Shown here in pieces: positions 56,950-63,638 of a stretch of 64,000 nt of DNA. Below the pieces are notes generated by a model. It did not search any database, was not told the origin of the DNA, and saw nothing but the letters and a program-made list of their open reading frames with translations. Each line of letters opens with the position of its first letter. The stretch's first letter is position 1. The position numbers and the translations under genes are program-made. The stretch is from Acidobacteriota bacterium (GTDB lineage Bacteria > Acidobacteriota > Holophagae > Holophagales > Holophagaceae): assembly GCA_016195985.1 (NCBI GenBank), contig JACPYP010000007.1, positions 248,001 through 312,000 of the forward strand. The letters run 5' to 3'.

Positions 56950-56966
56950 TGATATATTAGATATCA
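56950..56966 (+). promoter_or_regulatory. Candidate operator of the hydroxyproline-peptide operon
   Basis: TGATAT-ATTAG-ATATCA is a perfect 6-base inverted repeat with a 5-base centre, in a very AT-rich patch 24-40 bases before the ATG of the first operon gene. GntR-family FCD regulators bind such short AT-rich palindromes, and one is the second gene of the operon. The site would block initiation if bound. Confidence 0.5.
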
Positions 56967-56989: not shown

Positions 56990-58372
56990 ATGACGAGCAC
57001 CCACCTCTACCTTGAACGGCGGAACCGGTTGCAGGCCCACCTGGGGCGAGGTCTGCTGCTGCTGCTGGGCAACGAGGAAAGCCCCATGAACTATGGGGAC
57101 AACACTTATCCCTTCAGGCAGGACAGCACCTTCCTCTATTTCACTGGGATCGCCAGGCCGGGTTGCGCCCTGTTGATGGATCTGGATGAGGACCAGACCA
57201 CCCTCTTCGCGGACGATCCCACCGTGGATGATCTGGTGTGGACAGGGCCGCAACCCACGGGTCGGGACCTGGCTGTGGCTGCAGACATCCCCCAGGTGGC
57301 GTCCACCCGCGATCTGAACGAAGCGCTGCGCCGGGCCCAGCAGGCGGGGCGCGCCATCCACTTCCTCCCCCCCTACCGGGCCGAGCACCGCCTGAAGCTG
57401 CAGGAGCTGCTGGGGCTGGATCCGGCAGGGCAGGCCGCCGCGGCATCCGTTCCCTTCATCCAGGCTGTGACCGATTTGCGCATCCGGAAATCCGCCGGCG
57501 AAATCGCCGATATCGAGAAGGCCGTGAACCTTTCGGTGGACATGCACCTGGCGGCCATGGCCATGGCCCGGCCGGGCATGACCGAAGCGGAGATCGCCGC
57601 GCGCGTCACGCAGATCGCCCAGGCGGCGGGCTGCGGCCTGTCCTATCCCGTCATCGCCACGGTGCACGGCGAGGTGCTGCACAACCACCACTACCACCAT
57701 CGCCTGGAGCCCGGGCAGCTCTTCCTCCTGGATGCCGGAGCGGAAACCCCCGCGGGCTACGCAGGCGACCTGACCAGCACCTTCCCCGTGTCTCCCGCCT
57801 TCACGCCACGGCAGCGGGACATCCACGATCTGGTGCTGCGCGCCTTCCTGGCGGCTGTGGAGGCGCTGCGCCCCGGGGTGAATTTCCGGGATGTGCACCT
57901 GCTGGCCTGCCGCACGCTGGCCTCGGGCCTGAAGGATCTGGGCCTCATGAAGGGCGACGCGGACGAGGCGGTGACCGCCGGAGCCCACGCCCTCTTCTTC
58001 CCCTGCGGACTGGGCCACCTGATGGGCCTCGACGTGCATGACATGGAAAACCTGGGCGAGGTTTGGGTGGGCTACCAGGGACAGTCCAAAAGCACGCAGT
58101 TCGGACTGAAATCCCTGCGCCTCGCCCGTCCCCTGGAGCCTGGCTTCGTGCTCACCGTGGAGCCGGGAATCTACTTCATGCCGGGCCTGATGGACCGCTG
58201 GCGCGCCGAAGGCCGCTTCCTCGATTTCATCGACTACGCGGCACTGGAGGCCTACCGGGATTTCGGCGGCCTGCGCATCGAAGAGGATTTCCTGGTGACG
58301 CCCGAAGGCAGCCGCCGCCTCGGCCGCCCCAAGCCCCGCACCGCGGCGGAAGTGGAAGCCCTGCGCGCCTGA
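56990..58372 (+). CDS. M24 Xaa-Pro peptidase (aminopeptidase P / prolidase type)
   Basis: A 460-residue metallopeptidase that cleaves bonds before proline. Residues about 5-140 are the aminopeptidase P N-terminal domain (YPFRQDSTFLYFTGI). The M24 pita-bread domain follows with its metal ligands: LLDAGAE (Asp), YAGDLTSTFPV (Asp), GLGHLMGLDVHD (His), LTVEPGIYF (Glu) and GLRIEEDFLV (Glu). AGGAGG precedes the ATG at 56990. It is the first gene of the operon ending in the hydroxyproline dehydratase, where it could release proline or hydroxyproline from imported peptides. Confidence 0.9.
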   Translation: MTSTHLYLERRNRLQAHLGRGLLLLLGNEESPMNYGDNTYPFRQDSTFLYFTGIARPGCALLMDLDEDQTTLFADDPTVDDLVWTGPQPTGRDLAVAADIPQVASTRDLNEALRRAQQAGRAIHFLPPYRAEHRLKLQELLGLDPAGQAAAASVPFIQAVTDLRIRKSAGEIADIEKAVNLSVDMHLAAMAMARPGMTEAEIAARVTQIAQAAGCGLSYPVIATVHGEVLHNHHYHHRLEPGQLFLLDAGAETPAGYAGDLTSTFPVSPAFTPRQRDIHDLVLRAFLAAVEALRPGVNFRDVHLLACRTLASGLKDLGLMKGDADEAVTAGAHALFFPCGLGHLMGLDVHDMENLGEVWVGYQGQSKSTQFGLKSLRLARPLEPGFVLTVEPGIYFMPGLMDRWRAEGRFLDFIDYAALEAYRDFGGLRIEEDFLVTPEGSRRLGRPKPRTAAEVEALRA

Positions 58373-58403
58373 TCGCCAGTCCCACCTCTTTCGGAGCCTC
58401 TGC

Positions 58404-59084
58404 ATGGTCCCCGGCAAGCCCATCATCGTGAAGTCCCTGCGGGAGCAGGTCTACGAGTATCTGAAGGCCGAGCTGAAGCGGGGCGCCCTCGACACAGACT
58501 CGTTCCTGGATCTCAACAAGCTGGCCAAGGATCTGGGGGTGAGCCGGACACCCCTGCGGGACGCCCTCATCCAGCTGGAGGTGGAGGAATTCGTCACCAT
58601 CGCGCCGCGCCGGGGCGTGGCGGTGCGCAGCCTCCAGCCCAAGGACATCCAGGAGATCTACCAGCTGGTGGGCGCTCTCGAAGGGGCCGCGCTGATGGCG
58701 GTGGGCCCCACCATGACCGCGGAAGACATCACGCATCTCCGGGAGCTGGATCAGCGCTCCCAGCGCGCCATCGATGCCGGCGACAAGGATGGATTCTACG
58801 AGACCAACTACGCGTTCCATGATTTCTTCCTGAACCGCCTGGGCAATAGCCGCATCACCGCTCTGGTGCACGCGAAGAAACAGCAGCTCTACGACTGGAA
58901 CCGCAAGTTCGAACGGTTGCATGTCAACTGGGAGAACAGCGGCGTCCATGAGCACGAGGAAGTGCTCCGCCTCCTGGAGACCGGAGCCATTCCCGAGGCC
59001 GCAGCCTACCTGCGGGATGTGCACTGGGGCTTCAATGTGCAGGAAGCCTTCGTGAACCAGGTCTACTTCACGGAGCAGGGATGA
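58404..59084 (+). CDS. GntR-family regulator, FCD subfamily
   Basis: A 226-residue regulator. The N-terminal winged helix has SLREQVYEYLKAELKRGAL and the recognition helix LAKDLGVSRTPLRDALIQL. The C-terminal helical FCD domain (about 85-220) contains the metal/ligand histidines expected of the family (NYAFHDFFLN, GVHEHEEVLRLLETG, VHWGF). FCD regulators usually bind small carboxylates and repress catabolic operons. It lies inside the operon, overlaps the transporter gene by four bases, and probably senses the substrate or a product such as hydroxyproline. Confidence 0.88.
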   Translation: MVPGKPIIVKSLREQVYEYLKAELKRGALDTDSFLDLNKLAKDLGVSRTPLRDALIQLEVEEFVTIAPRRGVAVRSLQPKDIQEIYQLVGALEGAALMAVGPTMTAEDITHLRELDQRSQRAIDAGDKDGFYETNYAFHDFFLNRLGNSRITALVHAKKQQLYDWNRKFERLHVNWENSGVHEHEEVLRLLETGAIPEAAAYLRDVHWGFNVQEAFVNQVYFTEQG

Positions 59085-60376
59085 GCGCCAACGCCGCCAC
59101 TTCTGAAAGGCACCCCGCGGGGCTCCGCACCCTCTTTCTCACCGAGATGTGGGAGCGCCTGGGCTTCTACATCCTCATGGCCATCCTCACCCTCTACATG
59201 GATCAGGAACTGGGCTGGGGAGATGCCACCAAAGGCAGCATCTACGGCGCCTTCCTGGGCCTCAGCTACTTCTCTCCGCTGCTGGGCGGATGGATGGGGG
59301 ACCGGCTCATCGGGCGCGTGGGCACCGTGCGGACCGGCGCGGTGCTCATGACGCTGGGCTACGCCAGCCTGGGCTGCTCCTCCCGCACCCTGGTGGCGCC
59401 CTTCTTCGCGGGCCTGCTGCTGGTGGGCATCGGCGCGGGCATCCTCAAGGCGAACCTCTCCGTGCTGGTGGGCACGCTCTACGAGGAGAGGCCCCACCTG
59501 CGGGACGCGGGCTACAACCTCTATTACATGGGCATCAACATCGGCGCGGCGGTGGCGCCCCTCGTGGCCACCGCCATGGCCGTCTGGTTCGGCAGCTACC
59601 GGGTTTCCTTCTGGATCGCCGCGGGAGGCATGATCCTGGCCCAGGCTTTCTTCCTCCGCGGCGTCCATCACTTCCCCGAATCCGGAAACAGCCATTCGGA
59701 GGCCGGAACCGAGGCTCCCGCCATGGCTTCCGGGGATATCCAGCGCCGGCTTCTGGCGCTGGGAGGCCTGTTCCTGGTGGCCATCTTCTTCTGGACAGCC
59801 TTCTATCAGAACGGCTTCGCCATGACGCTCTTCGCGCAGCGCTCGACCCTGGCCTACCGCTGGCTGCGCCCTGAGACCTACCAGTTCTTCCAGCCCGCCT
59901 TCATCCTGGTGGCCACGCCGCCCATGCTGGCCCTGTTCGCGTGGATGAAGCGGGGCAACCGCGAGCCCTCGACGCCCGGGAAGATCCTGTCGGGCATGCT
60001 GATCATGGGCGGCTCCATGCTCGTGATGGCCCTGGCCAGCCGCCTGGGCGGCAACCTGGACCAGCCCCTCATGTCGCCTGGCTGGCTCATCGGCGCCTAC
60101 GGGTTCATCACCCTGGCGGAGGTGCTCATCTCGCCCATGGGGCTTTCCTACGTTTCGAAGGTGGCGCCGCCCCGGTACCGCGGCCTCATGATGGGATGCT
60201 GGTTCGCGGCCACGGCCACGGGCTCCTACGGCTCCGGCTTCCTGGGCCGCAGCTACGGGCGTTTCCCCCATGACCAGTACTACCTGCTGCTGGCGGGCCT
60301 GCTGGGTTTCTCCGCCTGCCTGACCCTGCTCCTGTTCAAGCGGCTGCGCAGCTTCGACGCCCCAGGTGCGGCATGA
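59081..60376 (+). CDS. POT/PTR-family proton-coupled oligopeptide transporter
   Basis: A 431-residue major-facilitator protein of the POT family that imports di- and tripeptides with protons. The family motif ExxER is present in TM1 (Glu22, Glu25, Arg26 in TEMWERLGFYILM), and SYFSPLLGGWMGDRLIG and NLYYMGINIGA are the two classic PTR2 signatures. It is shorter than many POT proteins but has about 12 helices. Start and stop overlap the neighbouring genes (ATGA both times). Its place beside an Xaa-Pro peptidase suggests proline- or hydroxyproline-containing peptides as cargo. Confidence 0.9.
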   Translation: MSANAATSERHPAGLRTLFLTEMWERLGFYILMAILTLYMDQELGWGDATKGSIYGAFLGLSYFSPLLGGWMGDRLIGRVGTVRTGAVLMTLGYASLGCSSRTLVAPFFAGLLLVGIGAGILKANLSVLVGTLYEERPHLRDAGYNLYYMGINIGAAVAPLVATAMAVWFGSYRVSFWIAAGGMILAQAFFLRGVHHFPESGNSHSEAGTEAPAMASGDIQRRLLALGGLFLVAIFFWTAFYQNGFAMTLFAQRSTLAYRWLRPETYQFFQPAFILVATPPMLALFAWMKRGNREPSTPGKILSGMLIMGGSMLVMALASRLGGNLDQPLMSPGWLIGAYGFITLAEVLISPMGLSYVSKVAPPRYRGLMMGCWFAATATGSYGSGFLGRSYGRFPHDQYYLLLAGLLGFSACLTLLLFKRLRSFDAPGAA

Positions 60377-61275
60377 GCGCGGCACCCGTTCCGGCACCGG
60401 CGCCCACCGGCCGGATCTTCAACCTTCAGCGCTACTCGCTGCAGGACGGACCGGGCCTGCGGACCACGGTCTTCCTGAAGGGGTGCCCCCTGGCCTGCGC
60501 CTGGTGCCACAACCCGGAAAGCCAGTCGCCGGAGCCGGTGCTGGTCATGCAGGAGGGCCGCTGCATCGCCTGCGGCGCCTGCTACAAGGTCTGCGGCGAG
60601 GGCGAAGTGCCCAGCGATCACCCCGAGGCCTGCGTGGATGCCTGCCCCACCGGCGCCCGGCAGCTGCTGGGGCGCGACGTCGCCGTGGAGGAGCTGCTGG
60701 TGGAGGTGATGAAGGACCGCCTCTTCTTCGATCAGTCCGGCGGCGGCGTCACCCTCTCGGGGGGGGAACCGCTCATGCAGCCTGCCTTCGCCGTCGCCGT
60801 GCTGGAGGCGCTGCGCCAACGGGGCGTGCACACGGCCTTGGACACCTGCGGTCTGGGACGCTGGGAGGACCTGCTGGAGGCCGCGGCCCTCGCCGATCTT
60901 GTGCTTTTCGATCTGAAGCACATGGATGACGCGCAGCACCGCAAATGGACGGGGGTGGGCAACGGTGCCATCCTCGCCAACCTGGAGCGGCTGGGACGCC
61001 GCCATCCGCAGATCTGGATCCGCGTGCCGGTGGTGCCCGGCGTGAACGATGATCCGGCGAACCTGGAGGCCACAGCCCGGTTTGTGGCCTCCGTTCCGGG
61101 CGTCCGCCGCCTGGATCTATTGCCCTACCACAGCACCGGAGCGGCGAAGTTCCGCCGCCTCGGGCGGGAGTATCTCCTGGACCAGGTGGAGCCGCCGTCG
61201 GAGGCCCGCATGGCCAGCCTGGTGGACCTCTTCCAAGCTTTCGGCATTCCTGCCCACATCGGAGGCAACCCATGA
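60373..61275 (+). CDS. Radical-SAM activating enzyme for the glycyl radical dehydratase
   Basis: A 300-residue glycyl radical enzyme activase. The radical-SAM cluster motif is Cys38-X3-Cys42-X2-Cys45 (GCPLACAWCHNPE). A ferredoxin-like insert holds further cysteines (64, 67, 70, 74, and 87, 91), as in activases of dehydratase-type glycyl radical enzymes but not in the pyruvate formate-lyase activase. GGGVTLSGGEPLMQPAF and DLVLFDLKHMD are typical. It installs the glycyl radical on the product of the next gene, which it overlaps by four bases. It requires anoxic conditions. Confidence 0.93.
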   Translation: MSAAPVPAPAPTGRIFNLQRYSLQDGPGLRTTVFLKGCPLACAWCHNPESQSPEPVLVMQEGRCIACGACYKVCGEGEVPSDHPEACVDACPTGARQLLGRDVAVEELLVEVMKDRLFFDQSGGGVTLSGGEPLMQPAFAVAVLEALRQRGVHTALDTCGLGRWEDLLEAAALADLVLFDLKHMDDAQHRKWTGVGNGAILANLERLGRRHPQIWIRVPVVPGVNDDPANLEATARFVASVPGVRRLDLLPYHSTGAAKFRRLGREYLLDQVEPPSEARMASLVDLFQAFGIPAHIGGNP

Positions 61276-63638
61276 ACGAACGCACCGCACGGCTCCGCCA
61301 GGAAAGCCTCGACGCCACTCCTTCCCTCAGCTCCGAGCGGGCCGGGCTGATGACGGCTTTCTACCGCGAACACCTGGGGAAGCACGCCACGCCCATCCTC
61401 CGGGCCTTGGCCTTCAAGCACCTCTGCCAGCACAAGACCGTGTGGATCGGCGAGGGCGAGCTCATCGTGGGCGAGCGCGGGCCGCGCCCGAAGGCCGTGC
61501 CCACCTATCCCGAGCTCACCTGCCACACCGCGGAGGATCTGCGCATCCTCGACACGCGCCCCATGACCCGCTACACCGTGGCGCAGGAGATGATCCAGGC
61601 CTACGAGCAGGACATCATCCCCTACTGGCAGGGCCGGAGCTTGAGGGACCAACTCTTCGCGGCCCTGCCGGAGGAATGGCATGGGGCTTACGAGGCGGGC
61701 GCCTTCACCGAGTTCATGGAACAGCGGGCCCCGGGCCACACCGTGCTTGACGACAAGATCTACGGGAAGGGCCTGCGCGGCTTCCAGGCGGACATCGCCT
61801 GCTCGATGGCGCTGCTGGATTTCGAGAAGGATTCCGAAGCCCAGGACAAACGCGACCAGCTGGAGGCCATGGCCATCTCATGCGACGCCCTCATCCTGCT
61901 GGCGGAGCGGCACGCGGAGGAGGCCGATCGACTGGCCGCCGCGGCGGCCGACCCGGCCCGCGCCGCGGAACTGCGCCGCATCGCCGAAGTCTGCCGCCGC
62001 GTGCCGGCCCAGGCGCCGCGGGACTTCCAGGAGGCGCTGCAGTACTACTGGTTCTGCCACCAGGGCGTCATCACCGAACTGAACGGCTGGGACGCCTACA
62101 GCCCCGGCCACCTGGACCAGCACCTCTGGCCCTTCTACCAGCGCGGGCTGAAGGAAGGCAGCCTCACCCGCGAGGCGGCCCGCGAGCTGCTGGAATGCTT
62201 CTTCGTGAAGTTCAACAACCACACCTCGCCCTCCAAGGTGGGCGTCACCGCGGCTGAAAGCGGCACCTACACCGATTTCGCCAACCTCAACCTGGGCGGC
62301 CTCCTGCCCGACGGCAGCGATGGCAGCAACGAGCTGACGGACCTGCTTCTGGAGATCATTGACGAGATGCACCTGCTGCAGCCCAGCAGCAACATGCAGG
62401 TTTCGCGCAAGACGCCGGACGCCACCCTCAAGCACGCGCTGAAGGTGATCCGCAACGGCTACGGATTTCCCTCGCTCTTCAACGCCGACGCGGTCGTGGA
62501 GGAGCAGCTGCGTCAGGGCAAGTCCCTGGAGGATGCCCGCGCCGGCGGTTGCTCCGGTTGCGTAGAGGTGGGCGCCTTCGGCAAGGAGGCCTACATCCTC
62601 ACGGGCTACTTCAACCTCTCCAAGATGCTGGAGCTGGCCCTGCACGATGGTTTTGATCCCCGTCTGGGGCGGCAGCTGGGCCCGCGCAGCGGTGATCCCT
62701 CGGCGTTCCGAACCTTCGAGGACGTCATCCGAGCCTTCGAGATCCAGACCCGCCACTTCCTCGACATCAAGATCCGCGGAAACCAGATCATCGAGCGCCT
62801 CTACGCCACCCGCATGCCCGCGCCCTTCCTCTCCGTGCTGACGGACGACTGCATCAAGCGGGGCAAGGACTACAACGCCGGCGGCGCCCGCTACAACAAC
62901 ACCTTCATCCAGGCCGTGGGCATCGGGAGCCTCACGGACAGTCTGGCGGCGCTCAAACAGGTGGTCTTCGAGCGGGGCGATCTCTCCCTGTCCGAACTGG
63001 TGGTGACTCTGGACAGCGATTTCGCAGGCCACGAGCCTCTGCGCCAGCGGCTCCTGAACAAGGCGCCCAAGTACGGCAATGACGACAACGCCGCCGACGA
63101 CGTGATGGTCCGCGTCTTCCGCTTCCTCTTCCAGGCCATCGACGGCCGTCCCAATGGCAAGGGCGGGGCCTACCGCCTGGAGATGCTGCCCACCACCTGC
63201 CATGTCTATTTCGGCCAGGTCTGCCAGGCTTCCGCCGATGGCCGCCGCGCGGGGGAGCCGCTATCCGAGGGCATTTCCCCCGTGCAGGGCGCCGATCGCA
63301 ACGGCCCCACGGCCGTGTTGCGCTCCGCCGGGAAGATGGACCACGTGAAGACCGGCGGCACCCTTCTGAACATGAAGTTCACCCCAAGCCTGCTGGAAGG
63401 GGAGGGCGGCATCGACCGGCTGCACCACCTGGTGCGCAGCTACTTCAAGATGGACGGCCACCACATCCAGTTCAACGTGGTCACCGCCGCCAAGCTGCGC
63501 GAAGCCCAGGCCCACCCCGAGGCCCATCGCGGACTCATCGTGCGCGTGGCGGGCTACTCCGATTACTTCTGCGACCTGTCTCTCGCCCTGCAGGAAGAAA
63601 TCATCCGCCGCACCGAGCACGAAGCCTTCGCAGAGTGA
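61272..63638 (+). CDS. hypD: Glycyl radical enzyme, trans-4-hydroxy-L-proline dehydratase
   Basis: A 788-residue glycyl radical enzyme. The radical site is Gly761 in RVAGYSDYF and the thiyl radical site is Cys430 in GGCSGCVEVG, with Glu432. Compared with the active-site residues I recall for Clostridioides difficile hydroxyproline dehydratase (F152, H160, D278, S334, D339, F340, C434, E436, Y450, T645 and G765), this protein has the same residue at every position minus four: F148, H156, D274, S330, D335, F336, C430, E432, Y446, T641 and G761. It should convert trans-4-hydroxyproline to pyrroline-5-carboxylate. The name hypD also denotes an unrelated hydrogenase maturation gene. A pyrroline-5-carboxylate reductase gene is not in the window. 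Confidence 0.92.
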   Translation: MNERTARLRQESLDATPSLSSERAGLMTAFYREHLGKHATPILRALAFKHLCQHKTVWIGEGELIVGERGPRPKAVPTYPELTCHTAEDLRILDTRPMTRYTVAQEMIQAYEQDIIPYWQGRSLRDQLFAALPEEWHGAYEAGAFTEFMEQRAPGHTVLDDKIYGKGLRGFQADIACSMALLDFEKDSEAQDKRDQLEAMAISCDALILLAERHAEEADRLAAAAADPARAAELRRIAEVCRRVPAQAPRDFQEALQYYWFCHQGVITELNGWDAYSPGHLDQHLWPFYQRGLKEGSLTREAARELLECFFVKFNNHTSPSKVGVTAAESGTYTDFANLNLGGLLPDGSDGSNELTDLLLEIIDEMHLLQPSSNMQVSRKTPDATLKHALKVIRNGYGFPSLFNADAVVEEQLRQGKSLEDARAGGCSGCVEVGAFGKEAYILTGYFNLSKMLELALHDGFDPRLGRQLGPRSGDPSAFRTFEDVIRAFEIQTRHFLDIKIRGNQIIERLYATRMPAPFLSVLTDDCIKRGKDYNAGGARYNNTFIQAVGIGSLTDSLAALKQVVFERGDLSLSELVVTLDSDFAGHEPLRQRLLNKAPKYGNDDNAADDVMVRVFRFLFQAIDGRPNGKGGAYRLEMLPTTCHVYFGQVCQASADGRRAGEPLSEGISPVQGADRNGPTAVLRSAGKMDHVKTGGTLLNMKFTPSLLEGEGGIDRLHHLVRSYFKMDGHHIQFNVVTAAKLREAQAHPEAHRGLIVRVAGYSDYFCDLSLALQEEIIRRTEHEAFAE

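Follow-up and report, generated by a model that had tools for sequence, protein, structure and literature searches.

Trans-4-hydroxy-L-proline dehydratase (HypD) is known mainly from gut Clostridia, which turn hydroxyproline into proline for Stickland fermentation. In these bacteria, HypD is found near pyrroline-5-carboxylate (P5C) reductase (PMC7077986, PMC9044972). The locus described here lies in a 64-kb window of an Acidobacteriota genome (GCA_016195985.1, 4.26 Mb, hereafter G000), i.e. the whole stretch G000:C14:248001-312000 of contig JACPYP010000007.1, to which all window coordinates refer. Five genes on its forward strand (56990..63638) are predicted to encode a peptidase, a regulator, a peptide importer, a radical-SAM activase, and HypD, and we consider it likely that they form a regulated operon for the anaerobic use of hydroxyproline entering the cell as short peptides. 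By sequence and residues, the locus shares its dehydratase chemistry with the Clostridia HypD/HypD-AE/P5C reductase clusters, as well as an adjacent activase. It differs from them in having no proC beside HypD, and in carrying a GntR regulator, a POT importer, a predicted prolidase, and an activase with a reduced cluster domain (PMC7077986, PMC9044972).

Other described systems resemble parts of this locus. The collagen cluster of Colwellia BB5 likewise combines peptide uptake, a proline dipeptidase, and hydroxyproline catabolism, but with an oxidative epimerase route, an M9 collagenase, and an MFS transporter, whereas the window has a glycyl radical HypD and a POT importer (PMC7883544). FCD-type GntR repressors control hydroxyproline genes in Streptomyces and Sinorhizobium, and the HypR regulons of Streptomyces coelicolor and Sinorhizobium meliloti share with the window a repressor of this type next to hydroxyproline genes; however, HypR controls the oxidative route, and the S. 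coelicolor site TACAATGTCAC is unlike the TGATAT-N5-ATATCA repeat found here (PMC6608401). In the HypAA/HypBA2/HypBA1 systems of Bifidobacterium and Xanthomonas, GH127 and GH43 enzymes free the Hyp-linked arabinose of extensin (PMC7263609, PMC6085000). Enzymes of the GH43 and GH127 types are also present in an island elsewhere in G000, yet the published systems take the sugar, while here the peptide and the imino acid would be taken too. In the literature we searched, which mostly excluded subscription papers, no description was found of a HypD that comes with a dipeptide importer, a prolidase, and an operator of its own. The separate elements are known, and it is their combination that appears to be new—i.e. 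a HypD that would be fed by its own importer and prolidase, within a regulon whose probable, recognisable operator would make its remaining members findable by sequence scan.

A hydroxyproline dehydratase with an unusual activase

The last gene of the operon (61272..63638, + strand) encodes a glycyl radical enzyme that is HypD by curated score, residues, and tree, and would thus convert hydroxyproline to (S)-pyrroline-5-carboxylate. The protein scores 1196 bits against the HypD model NF043068 (curated cut-off 1100), and a search of the PDB returns Clostridioides difficile HypD (6vxc) at 974 bits, with query residues 3-783 aligned to chain residues 27-807, followed by glycerol dehydratase (496 bits) and HplG (416 bits). 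All 15 C. difficile HypD residues named in PMC7077986 (F152, R156, H160, W277, D278, K326, S334, D339, F340, C434, V435, E436, Y450, T645, and G765) are present at a constant offset of 4, among them the CXE Cys loop, the Gly that bears the radical, and the substrate residues known from the C. difficile structure. The preliminary description of this DNA had reached the same assignment from eleven residues at that offset, and the published set, which we used in their place, bears it out. This is also the only PF02901 match in G000.

We compared the window with a family set of 77 genomes (G codes; L codes denote loci) and with 80 named HypD loci from other groups. A tree of 38 sequences, made up of 31 HypD and 7 other glycyl radical enzymes of the family and leaving out C. 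difficile HypD, places all 31 HypD in one clade (support 100/100) apart from the other 7. The window enzyme falls inside this clade, not outside it as the preliminary description had held would speak against the assignment. It shares a group with the G033 and G009 sequences (95/96), joined next by those of G030 and G044 and after that by one from a Holophagaceae of another genus; its nearest named relatives are Holophagaceae (Acidobacteriota). Overall, HypD exceeds the model cut-off in 18 of the 77 genomes, while 4 more (G062, G063, G064, and G071) have a gene that is truncated or divided at contig ends or at a break, confirmed at 72-80% identity.

The adjoining activase gene (60373..61275, + strand) matches the glycyl radical enzyme activase model TIGR02494 (341 bits, cut-off 174) and falls short of the HypD-activase model NF043069 (321.7 bits, cut-off 425), which counts against the proposed reading of the operon; the protein is classed as a general glycyl radical enzyme activase only. 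Its iron-sulphur cluster domain has 6 Cys instead of the usual 8. Among 73 HypD-linked activases, 57 have the 8-Cys double-cluster ferredoxin pattern, 3 have 8 Cys otherwise spaced, 11 (the window included) have 4 to 6 Cys, and 2 are unreadable by pattern. The reduced forms occur in the window, L002, L003, L006, L007, L008, L009, L014, L020, L023, and L048. They keep about one CxxCxxC plus a CP motif, so most would hold at most one auxiliary cluster, and as such they offer a natural test of the role of the second auxiliary iron-sulphur cluster.

A prolidase-type peptidase and a peptide importer

The first gene (56990..58372, + strand) encodes an M24 metallopeptidase with an AMP_N domain (PF05195 and PF00557) of the prolidase (PEPD) type. 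Its best PDB matches are human prolidase (up to 185 bits) and then aminopeptidase P (168 bits). In human prolidase, Gly-Pro is held by His255, His377, and Arg398 (PMC8438212), and our alignments reveal equivalents of these three residues together with the five metal ligands. All 9 orthologues aligned retain the loop that carries the counterpart of Arg398 (SLR in FGLKSLRLAR), which is missing from two aminopeptidase-type paralogues, one on contig C14 of G000 and one upstream in L074; a further paralogue on contig C32 of G000 also has the loop, and so offers no contrast. Curated models argue against a full assignment, as the protein is far under every prolidase cut-off, including that of the Xaa-Pro dipeptidase model NF010133/PRK13607 (174.5 bits against 339); it also stays below the aminopeptidase model NF008131 (181.4 bits against 465). 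Because no curated Xaa-Pro model is reached, we limit the claim to a protein that works like a prolidase, predicted to cleave dipeptides ahead of Pro or Hyp. Judged by PDB score and the Arg398 loop, aminopeptidase P is the less likely identity. For a prolidase-type enzyme, Gly-Hyp or Pro-Hyp would be expected substrates and Hyp-Gly would not, so that only the former of the two dipeptides put forward in the preliminary description, Gly-Hyp and Hyp-Gly, is retained.

Orthologues of this peptidase (at least 56% identity) are present in 12 of the 77 family genomes, all 12 of which have HypD (Fisher P = 2e-7, uncorrected for kinship). G060, which has no HypD match, supplies a thirteenth, a fragment of 116 residues located at the end of a contig.

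The third gene (59081..60376, + strand) encodes a predicted POT/PTR2 proton-coupled di/tripeptide importer, which scores 235.9 bits against TIGR00924 (cut-off 130.2) and 160 bits against PF00854, has the ExxER motif as TEMWER, and has PepT_St-type transporters as its best solved relatives. At the position of PepT_St R33, where a POT importer would be expected to have Arg, Met is found in the window protein, 2 orthologues, and the paralogue of the same genome, while 5 other POT sequences of the genus have Arg. The clade of HypD- or DPP-IV-linked POT proteins (window 59081-60376; L145:9102-10376) shares this Met.

Related peptide genes lie elsewhere. Contig C26 of G000 carries, on one strand, a LacI gene, a POT paralogue (65% identical), an M24 gene (396 aa), and DPP-IV (PF00930 and PF00326, with an export signal seen by eye), and the POT-M24-DPP-IV set is kept in G009 and G033. 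In G065, window-type M24 and GntR genes adjoin DPP-IV away from HypD; in G073, DPP-IV, a window-type M24, and a second M24 stand in a row; and in G060, DPP-IV adjoins the M24 fragment. DPP-IV orthologues (at least 55% identity) are found in 8 of 77 genomes, 6 with HypD (P = 0.006). In G009 (L167, G009:C1:245000-263000), a C69 dipeptidase gene adjoins hydroxyproline genes and a second DPP-IV; such a gene is also located beside HypD in G063 (L144) and near M24 and HypD in G062 (L154).

Conserved gene order and a putative operator

Open reading frames and domain calls agree with the earlier view of five same-strand genes of these families joined mostly by 4-base overlaps, which are found at 3 of 4 junctions (GntR/POT, POT/activase, and activase/HypD); the M24 and GntR genes are separated by 31 bases. 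The complete order, with identical overlaps, is also present in G009 and G033, two other species of the genus, where it is flanked by the same aminotransferase and SDR genes. Retention in two more genomes points to more than chance, and the five genes probably form one transcript. The preliminary description had also called the operon self-contained, a term that does not hold given that the exported DPP-IV, ProC, and P5C dehydrogenase (P5CDH) are encoded elsewhere.

The second gene (58404..59084, + strand) encodes an FCD-type GntR regulator (PF00392 and PF07729), the probable repressor of the operon. Three His are invariant in 8 of 8 aligned sequences, and they match published metal-binding positions by pattern only. 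Aligning the upstream regions of the three complete operons reveals a 6+6 inverted repeat, TGATATATTAGATATCA (TGATAT-N5-ATATCA, 56950..56966), 24 positions before the A of the M24 start codon. It is the sole match in the window at up to 2 mismatches (0.14 expected), is exact in G033, and has 2 mismatches in G009.

We scanned 207 fetched loci for this palindrome; as these were picked around the genes of interest and are not random, the positions of the matches carry the weight. Exact copies occur in 15 of 207 loci, representing 11 distinct places, and all 11 lie immediately upstream of GntR-bearing HypD/M24 operons or of DPP-IV. Those directly upstream of GntR-bearing operons are in the window, G033, G044, G066, G067, G069, G070, G065 (where the site precedes M24-GntR-DPP-IV), L074, and L075. 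The eleventh precedes an unlinked DPP-IV gene of G066 (L168:8820) that starts about 60 bases further on, with no HypD or GntR beside it; shuffling this locus predicts no exact match, and the site adds DPP-IV to the putative regulon. A copy with 1 mismatch is found upstream of GntR in both G071 and G072, and near matches precede GntR in further phyla. In 8 of 11 named GntR loci, a palindrome with 0-2 mismatches is found no more than about 110 bases from the GntR match; of the other three, L002 carries its exact copy ahead of M24, the sequence of L048 begins within the gene, and L076 lacks a site. By comparison, when 460-base stretches are drawn at random from these loci, without removal of the true sites, 2.1% contain a site at up to 1 mismatch and 4.0% one at up to 2 mismatches. 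At up to 2 mismatches, the palindrome is absent from four HypD loci that lack GntR (those of G030, G015, G036, and G065), as expected if GntR reads it. Taken together, the palindrome is probably the GntR operator.

Some GntR and DPP-IV loci run counter to this pattern. GntR is present with no palindrome within 2 mismatches in G062 (L154) and within 4 mismatches in L076. The POT-DPP-IV locus on contig C26 of G000 also has no palindrome within 2 mismatches, so DPP-IV there would not be under this operator.

Proposed route and fate of pyrroline-5-carboxylate

The gene identities, their linkage and conservation, and the conserved palindrome with its places lead us to a route whose activities, operator role, inducer, and order of steps are predicted. 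An exported DPP-IV, encoded elsewhere, would trim hydroxyproline-rich peptides to X-Pro and X-Hyp dipeptides outside the cytoplasm, the POT importer would carry these inward with protons, and the M24 prolidase would split them ahead of the imino acid. The radical-SAM activase would switch on HypD, which would dehydrate trans-4-hydroxy-L-proline to P5C, and P5C could then become proline through ProC or glutamate through P5CDH. The FCD-GntR protein would repress the operon at TGATAT-N5-ATATCA and release it in response to an inducer, probably hydroxyproline or a compound derived from it. Within this scheme, dipeptide import, the prolidase, and HypD make up a route that is well supported by inference.

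The genes for the fate of P5C are all unlinked to the operon. The genome search for proC suggested in the preliminary description locates it at G000:C13:36197, a P5CDH gene lies at C13:114880 (TIGR01236, 780 against a cut-off of 613.6), and proline dehydrogenase is at C32:108724. An aldehyde dehydrogenase beside the latter was considered as P5CDH and rejected, as it reaches no P5CDH cut-off. ProC as a hidden partner of the operon was likewise rejected on its unlinked position. Among the families matched by at least two of 80 scanned HypD neighbours (hand-chosen from 232, mostly same-strand, and with some M24 genes known beforehand), the ProC family is absent.

Source of the peptides

The C26 set of POT, M24, and DPP-IV belongs to an island of about 41 kb on one strand, and its neighbours bear on where the peptides come from. 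An oxidative hydroxyproline part comes first, with a proline-racemase-family epimerase (model score 335.5, below the 442 cut-off, in an open reading frame called short), an FAD oxidase, a 2Fe-2S protein, an FAD reductase, a DHDPS-type deaminase, and an aldehyde dehydrogenase. Next are AraD, AraB, AraA, a symporter, a TonB-type receptor, GH51, two GH127-type enzymes, and a melibiase-type (alpha-galactosidase-like) enzyme, and the island ends with DUF5695, an aldose epimerase, LacI, POT, M24, and DPP-IV, with GH43 beside it on the opposite strand. G033 retains the island as well, and in G009 it is present as two pieces. With this oxidative operon next to arabinose genes (L184, G000:C26:404000-423900), the genome has two routes for one substrate. 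The island also encodes a 525-aa protein (L186:876-2453) with a metallopeptidase-like Pfam match of 24.5 bits (cut-off 27.4).

The presence of POT-M24-DPP-IV paralogues in an island with GH127, GH43, GH51, and arabinose genes fits plant hydroxyproline-rich glycoproteins (extensins), which we regard as a tentative lead for the source of the peptides. Strong GH127-type matches occur in 5 of 77 family genomes, i.e. the three with the five-gene operon plus G071 and G072, and all 5 have both HypD and M24 (P = 0.001 with HypD and 7e-5 with M24, kinship uncorrected); G056 and G057 have weak matches. The GH127 component of the extensin Hyp-arabinoside system is thus found at family level, with two genes in the island, although PF07944 extends to further families, GH146 among them. 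In G071, a single run combines a GH127 gene with genes for an M24 peptidase and an ABC peptide importer. About 75 bases upstream of it stands a 2-mismatch palindrome, of which 0.13 would be expected in the locus, and the run is also preceded by another, differently spaced TGAT...ATCA inverted repeat (L151:13540-13680). L055 (Verrucomicrobiota) has M24, aldose epimerase, and GH127 genes in a single run, which restriction-modification genes separate from HypD, 3 kb away. Across HypD genomes of other groups, GH127 is found in 31 of 50 against 3 of 14 controls, a difference we do not count as evidence since many of these phyla are carbohydrate-rich and the comparison has no matched HypD-free set.

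A plant source has its own difficulties. PF07944 includes pectin enzymes, the window operon itself has no glycosidase, the GH127 island of G000 has no palindrome within 2 mismatches, and genus g9 (G065, G066, G067, and G070) has HypD and M24 with no GH127 match. This last pattern would suit peptides derived from collagen or gelatin, as does the joint presence of prolidase and hydroxyproline genes in the marine Colwellia collagen cluster (PMC7883544). Set against a collagen source, which we consider rather unlikely, is the fact that in G000, G009, and G033 the related peptidase and importer genes share an island with arabinose-releasing glycosidases. A search for M9 collagenase returned 0 of 77 genomes and is uninformative, as control genomes gave no match either. 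These data suggest that plant hydroxyproline-rich glycoproteins are at least as plausible a source as collagen, which the preliminary description had favoured and we do not.

It is possible, though we hold this tentatively, that the window operon serves as the anaerobic branch of an extensin-feeding programme with scattered genes. Arabinose would be taken off by GH127, GH43, and GH51 enzymes and galactose by the alpha-galactosidase-like enzyme; DPP-IV and prolidases would cut the Ser-Hyp/Hyp-Hyp backbone; POT or ABC importers would take up dipeptides; and hydroxyproline would be used through HypD without oxygen and otherwise through the epimerase route. To our knowledge, little has been written on what becomes of plant cell-wall protein, a store of carbon and nitrogen, in anoxic soil. 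If the programme exists, HypD would be a plant-litter enzyme in soils and sediments and not solely a gut collagen enzyme, and the link to plant glycoproteins would point to a way in which anaerobes could live on plant cell-wall protein.

Peptides, free hydroxyproline, or another substrate

The operon could also serve free hydroxyproline, with the peptidase and importer as general peptide-nutrition genes that are co-regulated by proximity only. We judge this improbable, even though the distribution of the genes supplies real points against a dedicated peptide route. At the same site as the window operon, G044 has SDR-GntR-activase-HypD, with M24 and POT missing, and G030 has SDR-activase-HypD only, while G066, G067, and G070, from another genus, have M24-GntR-activase-HypD without POT. 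As such, sister lineages retain HypD without M24 or POT, and HypD would function without both, perhaps on free hydroxyproline. On the HypD tree, the simplest history would be an ancestral M24-GntR-activase-HypD unit, a single gain of POT, and losses in G044 and G030. Co-occurrence of the five genes, proposed earlier as a check, is therefore borne out for the full set in G009 and G033 and fails more widely for the importer, as POT adjoins HypD in 3 genomes only. Among the 80 named HypD loci, 71 have no M24 match, which makes the HypD-M24 pairing a minority pattern, and a POT match is found in just 1 (L054), where it is not adjacent to HypD. Lastly, POT families transport many dipeptides.

What speaks against free hydroxyproline as the main substrate is that the gene order is kept in three species, that M24 orthologues are confined to HypD genomes even if unlinked (the G060 fragment aside), and that the palindrome stands before M24 operons and before an unlinked DPP-IV. 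The pairing also recurs independently. In L081 (Clostridiaceae), HypD, a PAS protein, M24, and a five-gene ABC peptide importer lie on one strand, and this recurrence of HypD, peptide importer, and M24 with different genes favours peptides over free hydroxyproline, in line with the earlier proposal. An M24 match is located within the available stretch of 9 of the 80 named loci (tblastn), against about 1.1 expected from the rate in G000 (4 in 4.26 Mb). In the hand-chosen set of HypD neighbours, M24 is the commonest Pfam family (7 of 80), a count that is illustrative only.

Action of the glycyl radical enzyme on another substrate (a diol, another hydroxyproline isomer, or N-methyl-hydroxyproline) is highly improbable and was rejected on score, residues, and tree. 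Related enzymes such as HplG and a second glycyl radical enzyme in G072 do exist, but the window protein matches HypD at almost twice the bits of glycerol dehydratase, carries the full set of published HypD residues, and lies in the HypD clade apart from the seven other family enzymes. That second enzyme (G072:C130, L108/L181) scores 757 bits, below the HypD cut-off, and is encoded directly downstream of a proline-racemase-family gene; it may act on a different isomer of hydroxyproline. A proline-racemase-family gene also follows HypD on a Zixibacteria contig (L080:3937-4980).

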